A stretch of DNA of 64,000 bases from Aequorivita antarctica (lineage in GTDB: Bacteria; Bacteroidota; Bacteroidia; Flavobacteriales; Flavobacteriaceae), in the NCBI RefSeq assembly GCF_007997155.1, contig NZ_VORT01000004.1, positions 1 through 64,000 on the forward strand, written 5' to 3'. Under the pieces are notes generated by a model. The model was given only the letters and a program-made list of their open reading frames with translations. It was not told the origin of the DNA and did no database searches. Below, in pieces: positions 17,274 to 62,747 of this stretch. Each line of letters opens with the position of its first letter. Position 1 is the first letter of the stretch. A program made the position numbers and the translations under genes.

Positions 17274-17828
17274 TTAAAGAGTTTCATCCTGTGTCTTTAT
17301 GAATTCGGTAATTTTCTTCACAGCAATGTGATAGCTGCTTTTCAACCCTCCCACAGAGGTTTCCAGTATTTCCGAAAGTTCCTCGAAAGTATGGTCTTCA
17401 AAATATTTCATTGTGAAAATCAATTTTTGCCTTTCTGGGAGTGTTGCAATCGCTTTTTGAAATTGTAGCTGAATGTTGTCACCATCAAAATAAACATCGC
17501 TTTCTAGGTTGCGCAAGGCATTGTCTTTCACATTTTCAATGGAAACATTATTTCGTTTAGCTTTTTTGTTGAGAAATGTTATAGACTCATTGGCTGCAAT
17601 TCTATACATCCAAGTGTGTAACTTACTGTCTCCTTTAAAAGAATTGATATTCCTGAAAATCTTAATGAATGTGTTTTGAAGTACGTCATCAGCATCATCG
17701 TGGTCCAATACCATATTCCGTATTTGCCAGTAGAGCCGTTCCTTGTACTGCTTAACAAGTTCCCGAAATGCGGCTTCTTTGTCCGTTTCGGTCTGTAATG
17801 CCATTACAAGTTCTTGTTCTTCAACCAT
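17274..17828 (-). CDS. ECF RNA polymerase sigma factor
   Basis: 184 residues. Sigma region 2: ERLYWQIRNMVLDHDDADDVLQNTFIKIFRNINSFKGDSKLHTWMYRIAANESI. Region 4: LPERQKLIFTMKYFEDHTFEELSEILETSVGGLKSSYHIAVKKI. No region 1.1 or 3, so extracytoplasmic-function type. First gene of an operon with a membrane protein and a Spy-like protein, as in a sigma/anti-sigma/envelope-stress module. Confidence 0.93.
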   Translation of the reverse strand: MVEEQELVMALQTETDKEAAFRELVKQYKERLYWQIRNMVLDHDDADDVLQNTFIKIFRNINSFKGDSKLHTWMYRIAANESITFLNKKAKRNNVSIENVKDNALRNLESDVYFDGDNIQLQFQKAIATLPERQKLIFTMKYFEDHTFEELSEILETSVGGLKSSYHIAVKKITEFIKTQDETL

Positions 17829-37349: not shown

Positions 37350-37925
37350 ATGAAAAAAATTACTTTGTTCTTATTTTTTATTGCAATAAACATTCTCAGT
37401 GCGCAGAATGTTGTTGAAATTGCTTGGGGACAAGGGATTAATGAATCTGTTGCCAGTCCTACAATAGAAGTGGGAGATACTGTTCTGTGGACTTGGGCAG
37501 ATACTTCACAAAAAAGTGTAACGAGCCTTCAAAATGGTACCGAAGTTTTCGACAGTGGTTCGCTTAAGGGTATAAACAATGATTTTTCATATACTTTCTC
37601 TAAAATAGGTATTACCGAATATCAAAATGATCTTGCCCCTTCAATGCATGGCAAAGTTACAGTGGTTGGAAGGCTTTCAACAGAAGAAAAATTTGTAAAA
37701 AACTTGAATTTCTACCCTAATCCGGTAAAAAATGACCTGACCATTTCTTCAATTTTTAAAATTGATAGTTATCAAATTTATAACGTTTTGGGAACCCTAG
37801 TTTCCGAAGGAAAGGGATCCGGAAATATTGCCCAGGTTGATATGAGCAGATTGAACAGTGGTTTGTATTTTGTGAAAGTTACTTCAAAAAATATGCAGAC
37901 CACTTTAAAAATTGCTAAAAAATAA
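37350..37925 (+). CDS. Cupredoxin-like secreted protein with T9SS sorting domain
   Basis: 191 residues. Signal peptide MKKITLFLFFIAINILSAQN, a plastocyanin-like domain (VEVGDTVLWTWADTSQKSVTS-type strand pattern, LAPSMHGKVTVVG at the end), then FYPNPVKNDLTI ... LNSGLYFVKVTS, a type A T9SS C-terminal signal. Classical Cys and both His ligands of blue copper proteins are not all evident, so metal binding is doubtful. Secreted, function unknown. Confidence 0.85.
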   Translation: MKKITLFLFFIAINILSAQNVVEIAWGQGINESVASPTIEVGDTVLWTWADTSQKSVTSLQNGTEVFDSGSLKGINNDFSYTFSKIGITEYQNDLAPSMHGKVTVVGRLSTEEKFVKNLNFYPNPVKNDLTISSIFKIDSYQIYNVLGTLVSEGKGSGNIAQVDMSRLNSGLYFVKVTSKNMQTTLKIAKK

Positions 37926-57784: not shown

Positions 57785-59692
57785 TTATAAAGCCTCATCC
57801 ATAATCTCCTGAACACATTCCGGGTTTAGCAACGTAGAAATATCCCCTAGATTATTGGTGTCTTTCTCCGCAATCTTTCTAAGAATACGGCGCATAATTT
57901 TTCCACTTCGGGTTTTGGGAAGGCCCGTTACAAACTGAATTTTATCTAATTTGGCTATTGGGCCTATATGCTCCGTGATTATCTGGTTAATCTCCTTACG
58001 CAGGTTGTCGTGTACGCGGCCTTCGCCAGTTTCTTTCAGGATTACAAAACCGTAGAGCGCATTCCCTTTCACATCGTGCGGGAAGCCCACTATGGCGCTT
58101 TCCGCCACAGCTGGATGTTCGTTGATGGCATCTTCAATAGGTGCGGTACCCAAATTGTGGCCAGAAACTATAATCACATCATCCACACGACCCGTAATGC
58201 GGTAATATCCCGTGCTATCGCGAAGAGCGCCATCACCTGAGAAATAGTAATTTTTAAAAGTTGAAAAATAGGTTTCGCGGTAACGTTCGTGGTTACCCCA
58301 TATAGTCCGCGCCATTCCTGGCCAGGGGAATTTAATGCATAAACGGCCACTAACTAAGTTTCCTTTCAGCTCATCGCCATTTTCATCCATTAGCGCAGGT
58401 TGTATTCCCGGCAGCGGCAAGGTGGCATAAGTAGGAATGGTAGGTGTGGAATAGGGTATAGGCGAAATCATAATGCCACCCGTTTCGGTCTGCCACCACG
58501 TATCTACAATGGGACAGTTTTTCTTGCCAATATTGTCATTGTACCAGTGCCAAGCCTCCTCATTTATGGGTTCGCCGACGCTGCCCAAAATTTTAAGTGA
58601 GGAAAGGTCATATTTTTCTGAAAAATCTAAACGCTCTTTTGCCAAGGCACGAATAGCAGTTGGTGCGGTATAAAACTGGTTTACTTTGTGTTTTTCAATT
58701 ACTTGCCAAAAACGTCCAAAATCTGGGTAGGAGGGAACCCCCTCAAACATAACAGTTGTTGCGCCATTTGCCAACGGACCGTAAACTATGTAGCTATGGC
58801 CTGTAATCCAGCCAATATCTGCCGTACACCAAAATACATCGTTTTCGCGGTATTGGAACACGTTCTTAAAAGAATATGCCGTATAAACCATATAACCCGC
58901 TGTGGTGTGAACCATCCCCTTGGGTTTTCCAGTGGAGCCAGAAGTGTAAAGAATAAATAATGGATCTTCGGCATCCATAATTTCAGGAACACATTTATTG
59001 TTTGCGGCATCAAGCAAAGGTTGCAACCACTTATCGCGGTTTGCTTTCATTGGTATTTCACTGTTGATGCGTTTGGCCACCAAAACGGTTTTCACACCTG
59101 GGCAGGATTCCAAGGCTTCGTCCACAATACCTTTTAAATCTATCGTTTTCCCACCTCGATAAGAACCATCACTTGTAATTACCATTTTACAATCAGAATC
59201 ATTAATCCGCGTATGAAGCGCTGTGGAAGAAAATCCAGCAAACACGACAGAATGTATGGCGCCAATACGTGCGCACGCCAACAAGGAAACCGCCAAATCG
59301 GGAATCATTGGTAGATAAATACAAACCCGATCGCCCTTTTTCACTCCGTGATCCAGTAAAACGTTTGCAAACCTACAAACGCGGTCGTGGAGCTGTCTAT
59401 AGGTTATATGCTCCGCAGCTTCAGAAGGATCGTTGGGTTCAAAAATGATGGCGGTTTTGTCGCCACGGGTGTATAAATGACGATCAATACAGTTTTCGGT
59501 GATGTTTAGTTTTGCGCCTTTATACCAAGAGACTTCGGGTTTTGAAAGGTCATAATCCAGCACTTTGTCCCAGCGTTTGCGCCACATAAAATTTTCTTCT
59601 GCAATTTCTTCCCAAAAACTTTCGGGGTCGCGAACAGATTTTCTATAAACTTGAAAATATTCTTCTAAATTTTTAATGTGGTAATTACTCAT
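57785..59692 (-). CDS. acs: Acetyl-CoA synthetase
   Basis: 635 residues. Activates acetate to acetyl-CoA via acetyl-AMP. ATP loop LFILYTSGSTGKPKGMVHT, YTAPTAIRAL, VDTWWQTETGGIMISP, YFSGDGALRDSTGYYRITGRVDDVIIVSGHNLGTA and LPKTRSGKIMRRILR with the acetylatable Lys. Standard AMP-forming enzyme, normal length. Divergent short gap to the patatin gene on the same strand. Confidence 0.97.
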   Translation of the reverse strand: MSNYHIKNLEEYFQVYRKSVRDPESFWEEIAEENFMWRKRWDKVLDYDLSKPEVSWYKGAKLNITENCIDRHLYTRGDKTAIIFEPNDPSEAAEHITYRQLHDRVCRFANVLLDHGVKKGDRVCIYLPMIPDLAVSLLACARIGAIHSVVFAGFSSTALHTRINDSDCKMVITSDGSYRGGKTIDLKGIVDEALESCPGVKTVLVAKRINSEIPMKANRDKWLQPLLDAANNKCVPEIMDAEDPLFILYTSGSTGKPKGMVHTTAGYMVYTAYSFKNVFQYRENDVFWCTADIGWITGHSYIVYGPLANGATTVMFEGVPSYPDFGRFWQVIEKHKVNQFYTAPTAIRALAKERLDFSEKYDLSSLKILGSVGEPINEEAWHWYNDNIGKKNCPIVDTWWQTETGGIMISPIPYSTPTIPTYATLPLPGIQPALMDENGDELKGNLVSGRLCIKFPWPGMARTIWGNHERYRETYFSTFKNYYFSGDGALRDSTGYYRITGRVDDVIIVSGHNLGTAPIEDAINEHPAVAESAIVGFPHDVKGNALYGFVILKETGEGRVHDNLRKEINQIITEHIGPIAKLDKIQFVTGLPKTRSGKIMRRILRKIAEKDTNNLGDISTLLNPECVQEIMDEAL

Positions 59693-59830: not shown

Positions 59831-60598
59831 TTATTTAAAATCTACTAATCTACGATCTTCCAATAGTTTTTTTGTAGTTGAATATCCTAACTGATAAATA
59901 GCATCTATATTATTCATATCAAAGGTTCCATATTTAATAAGTTCTTCAGGATAAATAACTAGATCGCAAGCAGAAAACTTGTTTAATGACTCTGCAGCTA
60001 CTTTAATTTTATAAGCTCTTTCTACAACGGTATAAGAATGCTTTAAATCCTTGGCGGTTATTTTTTTCAATGGATTTACATAAACACCGATTACTTTATC
60101 ACAGTTAGCTACTAATGGTTCAACGGGAAAATTGTTAAGCGTTCCTCCATCAACGTAATAGGAACCATTAATTTGCGTAGGAGTAAAAACGCCAGGAAAA
60201 GAAGCAGATGCAATTATAGGTTTGATTAATTGCCCCTTATTGAAAATTTTTAAAGTTCCTTTTATTATGTCTGTAGCGGTAATATATAGCGGTTTTTTTA
60301 AAGCTGCGAAATCATCATCAGGAAAGTATTTTTTAAGGTCCCCATAAAAATTTTCACTATTGATAAATCCCGGTTTATTGTATGCGTATCTATTGGTGCG
60401 AAAAATAGGAATGGTTTTAAAAAAATTCAATATTTCCATCCATGGTACATCATTAGCATACAATGCCCCCACAATAGCTCCTGAACTTGTGCCAGAAATA
60501 TGGGTAACAATGATGCCGTGTTCTTCTATTGCTCTAATAGCACCAATATGCGCAGCTCCTCTGGCTCCTCCACCCGAAAGTACCAATCCTATTTTCAT
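59831..60598 (-). CDS. Patatin-like phospholipase
   Basis: 255 residues. Oxyanion hole GLVLSGGGARGAAHIG, nucleophile GTSSGAIVGAL (GxSxG), and catalytic Asp in YYVDGGTLNNFPVEPL. Cytoplasmic or membrane-surface lipid hydrolase (Ser-Asp dyad). Upstream lies an ATGAC-N4-like FNR-type site (60651-60664) with a TATATTTA box centred 33 bp downstream on the minus strand, so it probably belongs to a stress or low-oxygen regulon. Confidence 0.92.
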   Translation of the reverse strand: MKIGLVLSGGGARGAAHIGAIRAIEEHGIIVTHISGTSSGAIVGALYANDVPWMEILNFFKTIPIFRTNRYAYNKPGFINSENFYGDLKKYFPDDDFAALKKPLYITATDIIKGTLKIFNKGQLIKPIIASASFPGVFTPTQINGSYYVDGGTLNNFPVEPLVANCDKVIGVYVNPLKKITAKDLKHSYTVVERAYKIKVAAESLNKFSACDLVIYPEELIKYGTFDMNNIDAIYQLGYSTTKKLLEDRRLVDFK

Positions 60599-60620: not shown

Positions 60621-60664
60621 TAAATATATTAAAGGGTATAATTTGAAGTTATGACGTAGATCAT
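60621..60664 (-). promoter_or_regulatory. FNR-like site and -7 box of the patatin gene
   Basis: ATGAC-GTAG-ATCAT (60651-60664), one mismatch to the ATGAC-N4-GTCAT palindrome, with TATATTTA (60628-60621, minus) centred 33 bp from it. The box differs from TAnnTTTG in one base. Confidence 0.6.
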
Positions 60665-60765
60665 TTTAGCTTCAATATTCTACAATTGCAAGTTTTGTTA
60701 TTATTTTCTCTAATATATAGTTGGCTTTTAACTGATTGGAAATTAACGTATAAATAATAATAGGT

Positions 60766-60809
60766 ATGACCTACGTCATTTTAAAAGAGTAATATTTATA
60801 ATAGTTTTG
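60766..60809 (+). promoter_or_regulatory. FNR-like site and -7 box of the coiled-coil gene
   Basis: ATGAC-CTAC-GTCAT (60766-60779) is a perfect site. TAGTTTTG (60802-60809), an exact -7 box, is centred 33 bp downstream. This places the site near -40, the class II activator position. Confidence 0.7.
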
Positions 60810-60829
60810 ATTTATAATAACTTAAGATC

Positions 60830-61216
60830 ATGGCAAAACAACTTATTTTCAACGCAGATTTACATTTTGAACACAATCAATGGAGAAGTGAACTTGCCTT
60901 TTGGGAAGATGAATTAAAATCTTTTACTAAGCGCTTAGAAGAATTAGTCGACCGCTGGACTGATAAGGATATGTTGGCACAATTAGAGCATTTTCAAAAT
61001 TCATTTATTCGCCAAGGAGAGGTTATAGACACATTGCAACACGATATCAATGTCCACGAAACTAATATGAGTGAGCTTGATGCCGAAGGCGAAAATGCAC
61101 TTAATCAGGCGCTAGTTAAAAACCATAGTGAGTTTAGAAATCGCATGGAAACCCAAAGACATATCTATGCAAGCCTTAAGAAAGATTTCTTTAAATTTCT
61201 TTCTAAATATATGTAG
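60830..61216 (+). CDS. Uncharacterised helical coiled-coil protein
   Basis: 128 residues, all helical and hydrophilic: LHFEHNQWRSELAFWEDELKSFTKRLEELVDRWTDKDMLAQLEHFQNSFIRQ ... SLKKDFFKFLSKYM. No membrane or signal segment. No known family comes to mind. It has an FNR-like site at -40 and shares the intergenic space with the patatin gene, so it is likely a cytoplasmic stress-response protein. Start follows the -7 box by 20 bases. Confidence 0.75.
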   Translation: MAKQLIFNADLHFEHNQWRSELAFWEDELKSFTKRLEELVDRWTDKDMLAQLEHFQNSFIRQGEVIDTLQHDINVHETNMSELDAEGENALNQALVKNHSEFRNRMETQRHIYASLKKDFFKFLSKYM

Positions 61217-61411
61217 CTTAAACAACCCTAATTGTTGAGAAAAGAAAGACTATTTTGAATGCTTTTTGTGCTTAACCTTAGGACTTAAAAAAGTGTCTGA
61301 ATTTAATTAGAAATTTTGATCAAATGTATAGAGCTTTTATTGATGTGCAAAAATTCAGATTCCAATGAGGGAATATGAAACTATTTGTCAATAATAAGTG
61401 AACCTTTAAAC

Positions 61412-61447
61412 AAAAAAGGAAGAAGATTCAATCTCCTTCCTTTTTTT
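61412..61447. terminator. Terminator of the hsp20 gene
   Basis: AAAAAAGGAAG and CTTCCTTTTTT arms with inner AGATT/AATCT, and T-runs on both strands. Confidence 0.85.
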
Positions 61448-61459
61448 GATTTCTTCTCC

Positions 61460-61894
61460 TTAAGAAATCGCCACCTTTCTTGGTTTCTTTTGCTTAGCCT
61501 CTGCTTTTTTGATAAGGTTAAAACTTAAAACACCATCCTTATAATGGGCTTTTATATCTTCATCCTTAACTGAACCTGGAAGTTGTAATTTTTTATTGAA
61601 AGAATTGTAGCTAAACTCCTTACGAGTATAGTTGTCGTCTTTATCTTCCTTAGACTTTGAGCTTTCTGCAGAAATATTTAGGCAGCCATTGTCGATGGTT
61701 ACATCAAAATCTTTCTTGGTAAACCCAGGTGCCGCCAATTCAACTTCAAAGGTATCATTGGTTTCCTTAATGTTCAATGCTGGTTCATACTGTTTTTTGT
61801 TCCATAAACGCTTGTCAAAGAAATTGTCATCATCAAAAAAATCTGATGTAACTAAATTTCCCCACGGTTTTCTGTTAAATTTTACTAGTGACAT
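61460..61894 (-). CDS. Hsp20/alpha-crystallin small heat-shock protein
   Basis: 144 residues. N-terminal KPWGNLVTSDFFDDDNFFDKRLWNK; alpha-crystallin domain from NIKETNDTFEVELAAPGFTKKDFDVTIDNGCLNISAESS to KDGVLSFNLIKKAEAKQKKPRKVAIS, with the conserved A-x-x-x-n-GVL motif (YKDGVL) and LPGSVKDEDIKA. ATP-independent holdase chaperone in the cytoplasm. Standalone, with its own terminator. Confidence 0.94.
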   Translation of the reverse strand: MSLVKFNRKPWGNLVTSDFFDDDNFFDKRLWNKKQYEPALNIKETNDTFEVELAAPGFTKKDFDVTIDNGCLNISAESSKSKEDKDDNYTRKEFSYNSFNKKLQLPGSVKDEDIKAHYKDGVLSFNLIKKAEAKQKKPRKVAIS

Positions 61895-61995
61895 AATTTT
61901 ATGATTTTAAGTTAAACAATATTTTATAAATCTAAATCACAAATAGTTAGTTAATTAGAAAATAACATTAATCAAATAACTATATATCTTTCGCT

Positions 61996-62601
61996 TTATT
62001 TGCTTAATTTATAAACCGTATAAGTATTGTCCTTTTCACGCACAGCAATAAGATTATCATTGATAAAGGTGGAGCGAATGATTGGTGGATTTTGCTTTAA
62101 TTTTAGCTCGTCGAACAGTAAATTGTTAGGTCCCCTTAGGAGTTGTATTGTTGCATTCTTCGTGTCTATTACCAATTCATTGTAGCTATAGTTTACAATA
62201 TGCTTTCCCAGTACATTGGTGGTGCCTGTATCTTCTTTATAGTATTTAATAACTCTGGCATAACCGTTTTCAAAAGGGGTAGCAGCAAGATAATCTGCAG
62301 GAATCACTTTTTCCCCCTTAGTGTTAATATAACCATAGAAGGTAATGCCGTCTCTCACTTCTTGAACTAAACAGTATCCCTCACTAAAAACAGGGGCTCC
62401 ATTAGGTGAAACAACTATATCTTTTCTGTAAGCTATAGTAAGTGTTCCAGTATCATTAACAAATCCCCAAGAATTACCTTTTTTAACTCCTGCTAGCCCT
62501 TCTTGAAAAGGGGCTATTTCATCAACCTCTGTAAGTACCTGTGCGGTTGAAAGAAAGGATAAACTTGTTAGCAGCAGCGTAATTAATATTGCAAGTTTCA
62601 T
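61996..62601 (-). CDS. WG-repeat secreted protein
   Basis: 201 residues from the Met at residue 11 of the frame, which opens a signal peptide (MKLAILITLLLTSLSFLSTAQ). Three WG-type beta-hairpin repeats: EIAPFQEGLAGVKKGNSWGFVNDTGTLTI, FSEGYCLVQEVRDGITFYGYINTKGEKVIP and ATPFENGYARVIKYYKE. Probably folds as a beta-propeller-like or repeat domain that binds a ligand. Function unknown. Confidence 0.8.
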   Translation of the reverse strand: MKLAILITLLLTSLSFLSTAQVLTEVDEIAPFQEGLAGVKKGNSWGFVNDTGTLTIAYRKDIVVSPNGAPVFSEGYCLVQEVRDGITFYGYINTKGEKVIPADYLAATPFENGYARVIKYYKEDTGTTNVLGKHIVNYSYNELVIDTKNATIQLLRGPNNLLFDELKLKQNPPIIRSTFINDNLIAVREKDNTYTVYKLSK

Positions 62602-62703
62602 AATAAATCTATTTAACTTCCTTATTACCAATGATATTCATAAAATTAACTGTTGTTTTAGCATTTTAAAATGATATTTATCAGTTTAGCTAAAAATTAT
62701 TAA

Positions 62704-62747
62704 ATGACAAATGTCATTGTATTGATAAAGTTTGAAGTTTAACTTAG
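62704..62747 (+). promoter_or_regulatory. FNR-like site and -7-like box of the universal stress gene
   Basis: ATGAC-AAAT-GTCAT (62704-62717), a perfect palindrome, with TAACTTAG (62740-62747) centred exactly 33 bp downstream; that box differs from TAnnTTTG in one base. The transcript would have a leader of about 190 bases. Confidence 0.55.

Follow-up and report, generated by a model that had tools for sequence, protein, structure and literature searches.

Which regulator acts on the palindromic sites between positions 60621 and 62747 of this stretch of Aequorivita antarctica DNA, and what do the genes beside them have in common? The stretch (the window: 64,000 nucleotides, C43:1-64000) belongs to a 3.84-Mb draft genome of 66 contigs. 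An earlier note had described three ATGAC-N4-GTCAT palindromes here, one of them with a mismatch, each with a TAnnTTTG-like box centred 33 bp downstream, and had proposed an FNR-type stress regulon under oxygen or redox control. The coordinates, the single mismatch and the spacing were right, and sites and boxes were re-located where they had been placed. By comparison with related genomes, the sites look like genuine operators of a family-wide Crp/Fnr low-oxygen regulon, with binding predicted. As regulator in this genome, the likely candidate is a fusion of a response regulator with a Crp/Fnr activator and not a standalone FNR. We put a probability of roughly 0.74 on the reading that this receiver-Crp/Fnr fusion, under an adjacent heme-PAS-like kinase, switches the regulon here.

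Palindrome and promoter box at a fixed spacing

At all three noted sites, the box begins 22 nt after the 14-bp site, so that the two centres are 33 bp apart. We take TAnnTTTG to be a Flavobacterium promoter element; papers on that genus were found to hold the string. By itself, the palindrome count in the window is near chance and is weak evidence: three palindromes with at most one mismatch were observed against 1.19 expected, and at least three were present in 10 of 100 shuffles. Genome-wide, the one-mismatch palindrome was not enriched (81 versus 104 for the reversed control); the exact palindrome occurred seven times and its reverse never. Palindromes with a box of at least 4/6 positions at exactly 22 nt numbered three in the window; 2000 windows simulated with a first-order model averaged 0.19, and four of these reached at least three, with thresholds that had been picked after the data had been seen. 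Of the seven exact palindromes in the genome, six are followed on one strand, at exactly 22 nt, by a box matching at 5/6 positions or more (6 of 14 orientations), every other offset from 5 to 59 occurring at most once; the one that fails the box test, at C2:90119, has a 4/6 box. It is in the geometry of palindrome and box, not in the palindrome, that the signal resides.

The exact ATGAC-N4-GTCAT sequence was tried as a consensus and rejected as too narrow, being unenriched once a mismatch is allowed, and the useful core is TGAY-N4-RTCA. Five such cores lie in the window and none of the reversed control; four of them, all within 60621-62747, are followed at 22 nt by a box of 5/6 or better, and the fifth, at 37762, lies inside an open reading frame (ORF) and has a 4/6 box. 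One of the four (62671-62684, minus strand) was missing from the earlier list, whose three entries were all real, and with it the region becomes two divergent promoter pairs, the promoter of the universal stress protein (Usp) gene being half of one. Across the genome, RTGAY-N4-RTCAY-N22-TANNTTTG has nine exact matches, 32 with at most one mismatch and 76 with at most two, the last against 42 for the reversed pattern. A random distribution of the motif, which the earlier note had offered as grounds for abandoning its proposal, was thus not observed for the composite of site and box but would apply to the loose one-mismatch palindrome.

A survey of 199 genomes of the family Flavobacteriaceae, from 198 genera, gave 1414 matches to TGAY-N4-RTCA-N23-TANNTTTG against 29 for the reversed pattern, with at least one match in 173 genomes. 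In the 80 named loci that carry the fusion gene (1,007,456 bp), 786 cores were counted against 96 reversed ones; one spacing to the box was used 129 times, the next two 13 and eight times and any other of the 60 at most five times, and the reversed control had no box at the favoured spacing. Taken together, the counts in the own genome and across the family bear out, computationally, an FNR-type site with a fixed, class II-like geometry. Elsewhere in the phylum, the composite is weakly represented, most genomes having zero to four occurrences. Two genomes of a distant family (f46), G459 and G492, stand out with 28 and 30 composite sites and not one reversed match, numbers that almost no genome of the window's own family reaches, and neither is among the 49 genomes of the phylum in which the fusion was matched.

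A low-oxygen and denitrification gene set

The targets in the own genome were compiled from 38 sites, namely the 32 with at most one mismatch and six chosen from the 44 with two, many of them on contigs C2 and C5, and gene starts were taken from a simple ORF caller. The sites face ccoNO, encoding the cbb3 oxidase (1340 bits, behind a 68-aa ORF), a P-type ATPase gene, hemN (423 bits) and the genes for the iron-sulfur repair protein RIC (244 bits) and the ribosome hibernation factor HPF; ccoNO, hemN, RIC and HPF exceeded curated NCBIfam cut-offs. A nor-like operon, comprising a small cytochrome c, a heme-copper subunit-I-like protein and further genes, was named by eye from weak family matches. 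The nos operon comprises cytochrome c and fasciclin genes, nosZ and then nosD-, nosF- and nosY-like genes, with nosZ assigned by its propeller domain and the other nos genes by eye. Several Usp genes and the genes for a CoA-ligase-like ATP-grasp protein, a phosphofructokinase and an alcohol dehydrogenase are also targets. The distance from box to start is 18-35 nt in 21 of 37 targets, the exceptions including the Usp gene of the window (191 nt) and a gene at C43:97012 (193 nt). For the site at C5:21072, near the end of its locus, no target was found, and the site at C66:5811 lies inside a called ORF, probably with a wrong start.

With ccoNO, hemN, RIC, nor-like, nos, HPF and Usp genes among its members, this set points to a low-oxygen and denitrification regulon. 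A shared regulon under oxygen or redox control, as the earlier note had proposed, is thereby borne out computationally by gene content, together with the site counts and the regulators described below. Its label of a stress regulon captured only part of the picture: the Usp, patatin and coiled-coil genes do appear to belong, as outlying members, to what looks like a microaerobic and denitrification regulon and not one of stress alone, and the four gene types of the window (patatin, coiled-coil, WG-repeat, Usp) look like its fringe.

In Flavobacterium psychrophilum, a member of the same family, the cbb3 oxidase is reported to rise strongly under oxygen limitation (PMC9723704); the passages of that paper that were searched mention neither Fnr nor Crp. 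In an anammox-reactor study, Crp/Fnr homologues from metagenome-assembled genomes of Flavobacteriales, Saprospiraceae and Ignavibacteria are predicted to sense carbon, and its section on Ignavibacteria reports no evidence for Crp/Fnr control of denitrification (PMC8510549).

A receiver-Crp/Fnr fusion as the probable regulator

Three proteins of the own genome have a Crp-type helix-turn-helix (HTH) domain above the Pfam cut-off, namely a 350-aa fusion on C2 and two shorter proteins, L015 and L016. Residues 4-116 of the fusion form a receiver (101 bits), followed by a cNMP-type domain (PF00027, 61 bits, cut-off 27.5) and then a Crp HTH (PF13545, 50 bits, cut-off 27), the arrangement of the Crp/Fnr superfamily. 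Among eight fusions compared, the receiver residues usual for phosphorylation (D9, D10, D52, S82 and K104) and the recognition helix ATESLIRTLS are invariant, and the only invariant cysteine is C51, within the receiver. The protein is not an FNR proper: it has no 4Fe-4S cysteine set, and it carries a receiver and hence is not a one-component regulator. Its best matches among the named genomes are from Aequorivita, at 93% identity.

Eight relatives that have sites and lack the fusion at E 1e-60 encode a standalone FNR of about 225 aa, in which a CxxC motif, C53 and C106 are kept in all eight and C29 in six (L089 numbering); this protein would presumably sense through an Fe-S cluster. Its recognition helix reads ATESAIR in seven of the eight, close to the ATESLIR of the fusion. 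The standalone FNR is present in 118 of the 199 family genomes and was not found in the own genome in a search at E 1e-40; the fusion is present in 86 (E 1e-60, some of the copies counted reaching only 41-50% identity). Not one of the 156 genomes that have either regulator is without sites. The mean number of composite sites per genome is 12.7 with both regulators (n = 48), 6.3 with the standalone FNR only (n = 70), 8.6 with the fusion only (n = 38) and 0.9 with neither (n = 43, 26 of them with zero), and among genomes at least 90% complete and of at least 2.5 Mb the fusion-only group (36) differs from the group with neither (11) at p = 1e-6 (Mann-Whitney), all of these being statistics that ignore phylogeny and gene content.

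In a tree of the Crp halves, 26 fusions (20 of the 80 named ones, our own and five others) came out as one group (support 96/98), next to the standalone FNR and to a second family that bears cysteines, the tree being midpoint-rooted with long branches flagged. This single group fits a single fusion event. The second family consists of 249-aa Crp/Fnr proteins with an N-terminal CxxC-type motif (L099-L102, L110) and occurs in several genomes that also have the standalone FNR. Across the phylum, the fusion was found in 49 of 345 genomes, 28 of them outside the family, and reaches other families of the class.

The adjacent kinase

Directly upstream of the fusion gene lies the gene for a PAS-HisKA-HATPase kinase of 411 aa, and such a kinase adjoins the fusion in 77 of the 80 named loci. 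In the PDB, its PAS domain best matches two oxygen sensors, DosP (E 9e-19) and FixL (E 4e-15). When aligned with DosP, H67 and R87 of the kinase pair with the residues that we take to be the heme His and the oxygen-binding distal Arg. The heme His is kept in 76 of 77 kinases, the distal Arg in 67 and the phospho-acceptor His in all 77. By its aligned proximal His and distal Arg the kinase resembles the FixL type, with heme binding predicted, and since the fusion has no invariant cysteine outside its receiver, sensing would sit in the kinase.

Within 250 nt downstream of the fusion gene, a site with its box is present in 76 of the 80 loci, compared with 5.4% of random stretches, and in all eight loci looked at it precedes a Usp gene; the regulator's own neighbourhood thus appears to be under the operator. 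A core that might serve autoregulation of the kinase operon also lies near the kinase start in 61 of 77 loci. Its box at 22 nt, scored at 5/6 or better, is on the side of the divergent gene in 57 loci and on that of the kinase in one. An example is the core at L060:17520-17533, between the gene at L060:17056-17460 (minus) and the kinase start at 17571. In the own genome, the kinase side of this upstream core has TACTTTTG at 25 nt.

Proposed mechanism and alternatives

We propose that low oxygen would empty the heme of the kinase PAS domain, and that the kinase in this state would phosphorylate the receiver of the fusion. The phosphorylated dimer, a Crp/Fnr-type protein, would bind TGAY-N4-RTCA, whose centre lies 33 bp before that of the TAnnTTTG box, and activate from the class II position, turning on the genes for cbb3 oxidase, oxygen-independent heme synthesis, NO and N2O reduction, ribosome hibernation and Usp. 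The patatin, coiled-coil, WG-repeat and Usp genes of the window would be peripheral members of the same regulon. In many relatives, a standalone FNR with conserved cysteines would act on the same sites, and 48 of the 199 genomes have both proteins. On balance, we lean towards a wider picture, in which Flavobacteriaceae feed two interchangeable inputs into a single set of low-oxygen operators, a cysteine-bearing FNR and a heme-PAS kinase with a fused receiver-Crp/Fnr, genera having either or both. The second input would be a two-protein version of FixL-FixJ-FixK that arose once in the family and rewired the regulon with its DNA sites unchanged.

What the system shares with the rhizobial cascades FixL-FixJ-FixK2 of Bradyrhizobium and hFixL-FxkR-FixK of Rhizobium leguminosarum is a heme-PAS kinase, here a predicted one, placed above the Crp/Fnr protein that activates cbb3 oxidase and denitrification genes (PMC7888657, PMC6710368). 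The hFixL-FxkR-FixK pathway of R. leguminosarum and a second, FNR-type input, FnrN, act on shared anaeroboxes (PMC7888657). Whereas FixJ or FxkR induces a separate FixK in rhizobia, here the receiver and the Crp/Fnr activator share one open frame, with no separate NarL/FixJ-type regulator and FixK, so that no intermediate transcription step would be needed. With the FNR of Escherichia coli, whose site is TTGAT-N4-ATCAA, the system shares the TGA-N6-TCA core, a predicted site position near -40, as at class II promoters, and a microaerobic gene set, and sister genera have the cysteine-bearing standalone protein. It differs in that the own genome lacks that protein and its fusion has no conserved cysteine outside the receiver, and in that the outer bases of the site vary and the box is TAnnTTTG. 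The likeness to DosP and FixL extends to the PAS match and, in DosP, to the aligned H67 and R87; unlike DosP, which is a phosphodiesterase, the sensor here is a HisKA kinase paired with a receiver-Crp/Fnr fusion. FNR and FixK regulons and heme-PAS kinases are known, and what appears to be new is a receiver-Crp/Fnr fusion that would read a low-oxygen operator and be exchangeable with a standalone FNR across a family. In the open-licence literature, judged mostly by titles and the openings of abstracts, we found neither a receiver-Crp/Fnr fusion nor this operator in Flavobacteriaceae described. Members of the family are widespread heterotrophs, some of which, including the present genome, carry nosZ. 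An operator with a fixed promoter geometry makes the regulon predictable from sequence across the family, and as sensors appear to have been exchanged while the operators stayed the same, an input change of a global regulon becomes directly testable.

The sites could be real and linked to oxygen and still be read by L016 (195 aa, C43:267922-268506) or L015 (210 aa, C2:31750-32382), with the fusion controlling something else. Both pass the HTH cut-off, and L016 has a recognition helix of the E..R type (RVETVIRAIKQLEQDG); moreover, where FNR and fusion are both absent, the number of sites per Mb is 0.74 in genomes with L016 (n = 4) and 0.34 in those without it (n = 39), and G138, which has five sites, encodes two L016 homologues. 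We nevertheless hold this to be improbable, because L016 occurs in 35 of 199 genomes, and in fusion-only genomes it makes no difference to the mean number of sites (8.73 with it in 15 genomes, 8.48 without it in 23). In G100, which has L016 and FNR, a single site was found, as in the control. The helices of L015-type proteins have no Glu, and such proteins also occur in site-free genomes (G073, G087), no family-wide search for L015 having been made; the helix ATES.IR, on the other hand, is common to the fusion and the FNR. Alternatively, the fusion may read the sites while the kinase senses NO, CO, the redox state or quinones, or while the fusion is not controlled by phosphorylation at all. 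Heme-PAS domains can bind NO and CO, the distal Arg is lost in 10 of 77 kinases, some of which may thus not sense oxygen in the proposed way, and the targets include denitrification genes and RIC, whose products handle NO. Against this alternative speak the best PDB matches of the PAS domain, which are to oxygen sensors, the presence of cbb3 oxidase and oxygen-independent hemN among the targets, and the five invariant receiver residues. We consider this alternative unlikely, though it deserves to be kept in mind.

Several findings weigh against the reading of a kinase-controlled fusion. Besides the limits of the co-occurrence statistics, genomes with neither regulator are often small, and G138 (99% complete) has its five composite sites with neither regulator at the thresholds used, as do G048 (nine sites, 82% complete) and G147 (seven sites, 73% complete). 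Outside the family, 4 of the 28 fusion genomes have no composite site (G267, G314, G441, G457), which makes the operator link firm only within the family. Of 77 loci, 76 have no box at 22 nt in the promoter of the kinase operon, the distal Arg is not universal, and a copper nitrite reductase gene (345 bits) on the same contig has only a weak site nearby. As for the window, the Usp leader is unusually long, no core lies within 260 nt upstream of the gene in 5 of the 18 coiled-coil relatives, and in L208 and L214, two of the ten such relatives with a site, the called start precedes the box. The long leader and the five relatives, like the near-chance palindrome count and the three other patatin homologues among the fetched loci (two without a core, one with a 4/6 box), would also suit the idea that the window sites are chance palindromes beside ordinary promoters, outside a regulon that exists elsewhere. 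Against it stand the four of five window cores that have their box at one spacing and form two divergent pairs, the rarity of simulated windows that reach three sites with a box, and the site and spacing kept in 10 of 18 coiled-coil relatives, and we regard it as very improbable.

Genes of the window and their surroundings

The features are listed in Table 1. For the coiled-coil gene, the 10 of 18 relatives that keep the site were scored by a box of 5/6 or better at 22 nt, the 18 being those above 60 bits; L212, whose ORF was not recovered, and L216-L225, which fell below 60 bits, were excluded. Nine of the best 30 homologues of the window Usp in the fetched relatives carry their own site. Within the 80 named loci, a site and box were counted within 300 nt for 147 of 250 Usp ORFs and for 139 of 780 other ORFs, a comparison confounded by operon position and by the fact that these loci surround the regulator.

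Table 1. Operators, promoter boxes and genes, in window coordinates unless a contig is named
Feature	Position	Strand	Remarks
Crp/Fnr-type operator, patatin promoter	60651..60664	-	one mismatch; core TGATCTACGTCA
Promoter box TATATTTA, patatin side	60621..60628	-	5/6 positions; exactly 22 nt past operator
Crp/Fnr-type operator, coiled-coil gene	60766..60779	+	exact ATGAC-N4-GTCAT
Promoter box TAGTTTTG, coiled-coil side	60802..60809	+	6/6; exactly 22 nt past operator
Fourth Crp/Fnr-type operator CTGATAAATATCAT, WG-repeat side	62671..62684	-	overlooked in the earlier note
Promoter box TAATTTTA, WG-repeat side	62641..62648	-	5/6; exactly 22 nt past operator
Crp/Fnr-type operator, Usp gene	62704..62717	+	exact ATGAC-N4-GTCAT
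Promoter box TAACTTAG, Usp side	62740..62747	+	5/6; exactly 22 nt past operator
Acetyl-CoA synthetase-like gene	57785..59692	-	Pfam AMP-binding and ACAS_N; 138 nt after the patatin gene, same strand
Patatin-like phospholipase	59831..60598	-	Pfam PF01734, 123 bits; box-to-start 23 nt
Coiled-coil-like protein, 128 aa	60830..61216	+	no Pfam family above cut-off; box-to-start 21 nt
WG-repeat protein	61996..62601	-	Pfam PF14903, 67.8 bits; ATG start, TTG at 62631 also possible
Universal stress protein, 284 aa	62938..63792	+	Pfam PF00582, 87.8 bits, residues 1-146 only; 191-nt leader
PAS-HisKA-HATPase kinase, 411 aa	C2:57571-58806		directly upstream of fusion
Receiver-Crp/Fnr fusion, 350 aa	C2:58808-59857		outside window

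The patatin and acetyl-CoA synthetase-like genes might be co-transcribed, which is a guess. Between the two promoter pairs lies an Hsp20 gene (61460-61894, minus) without a site of its own; Hsp20 homologues in two relatives do have one, with a 5/6 box in L175 and a 4/6 box in L211. Just past the window, in C43:60001-100000 (L008, L009), the island continues with a further operator at C43:64789 and with genes, named by eye, for a heavy-metal P-type ATPase, a phosphoribosyltransferase/thymidine-phosphorylase-like pair, an MBL-fold protein, another Usp and efflux functions.

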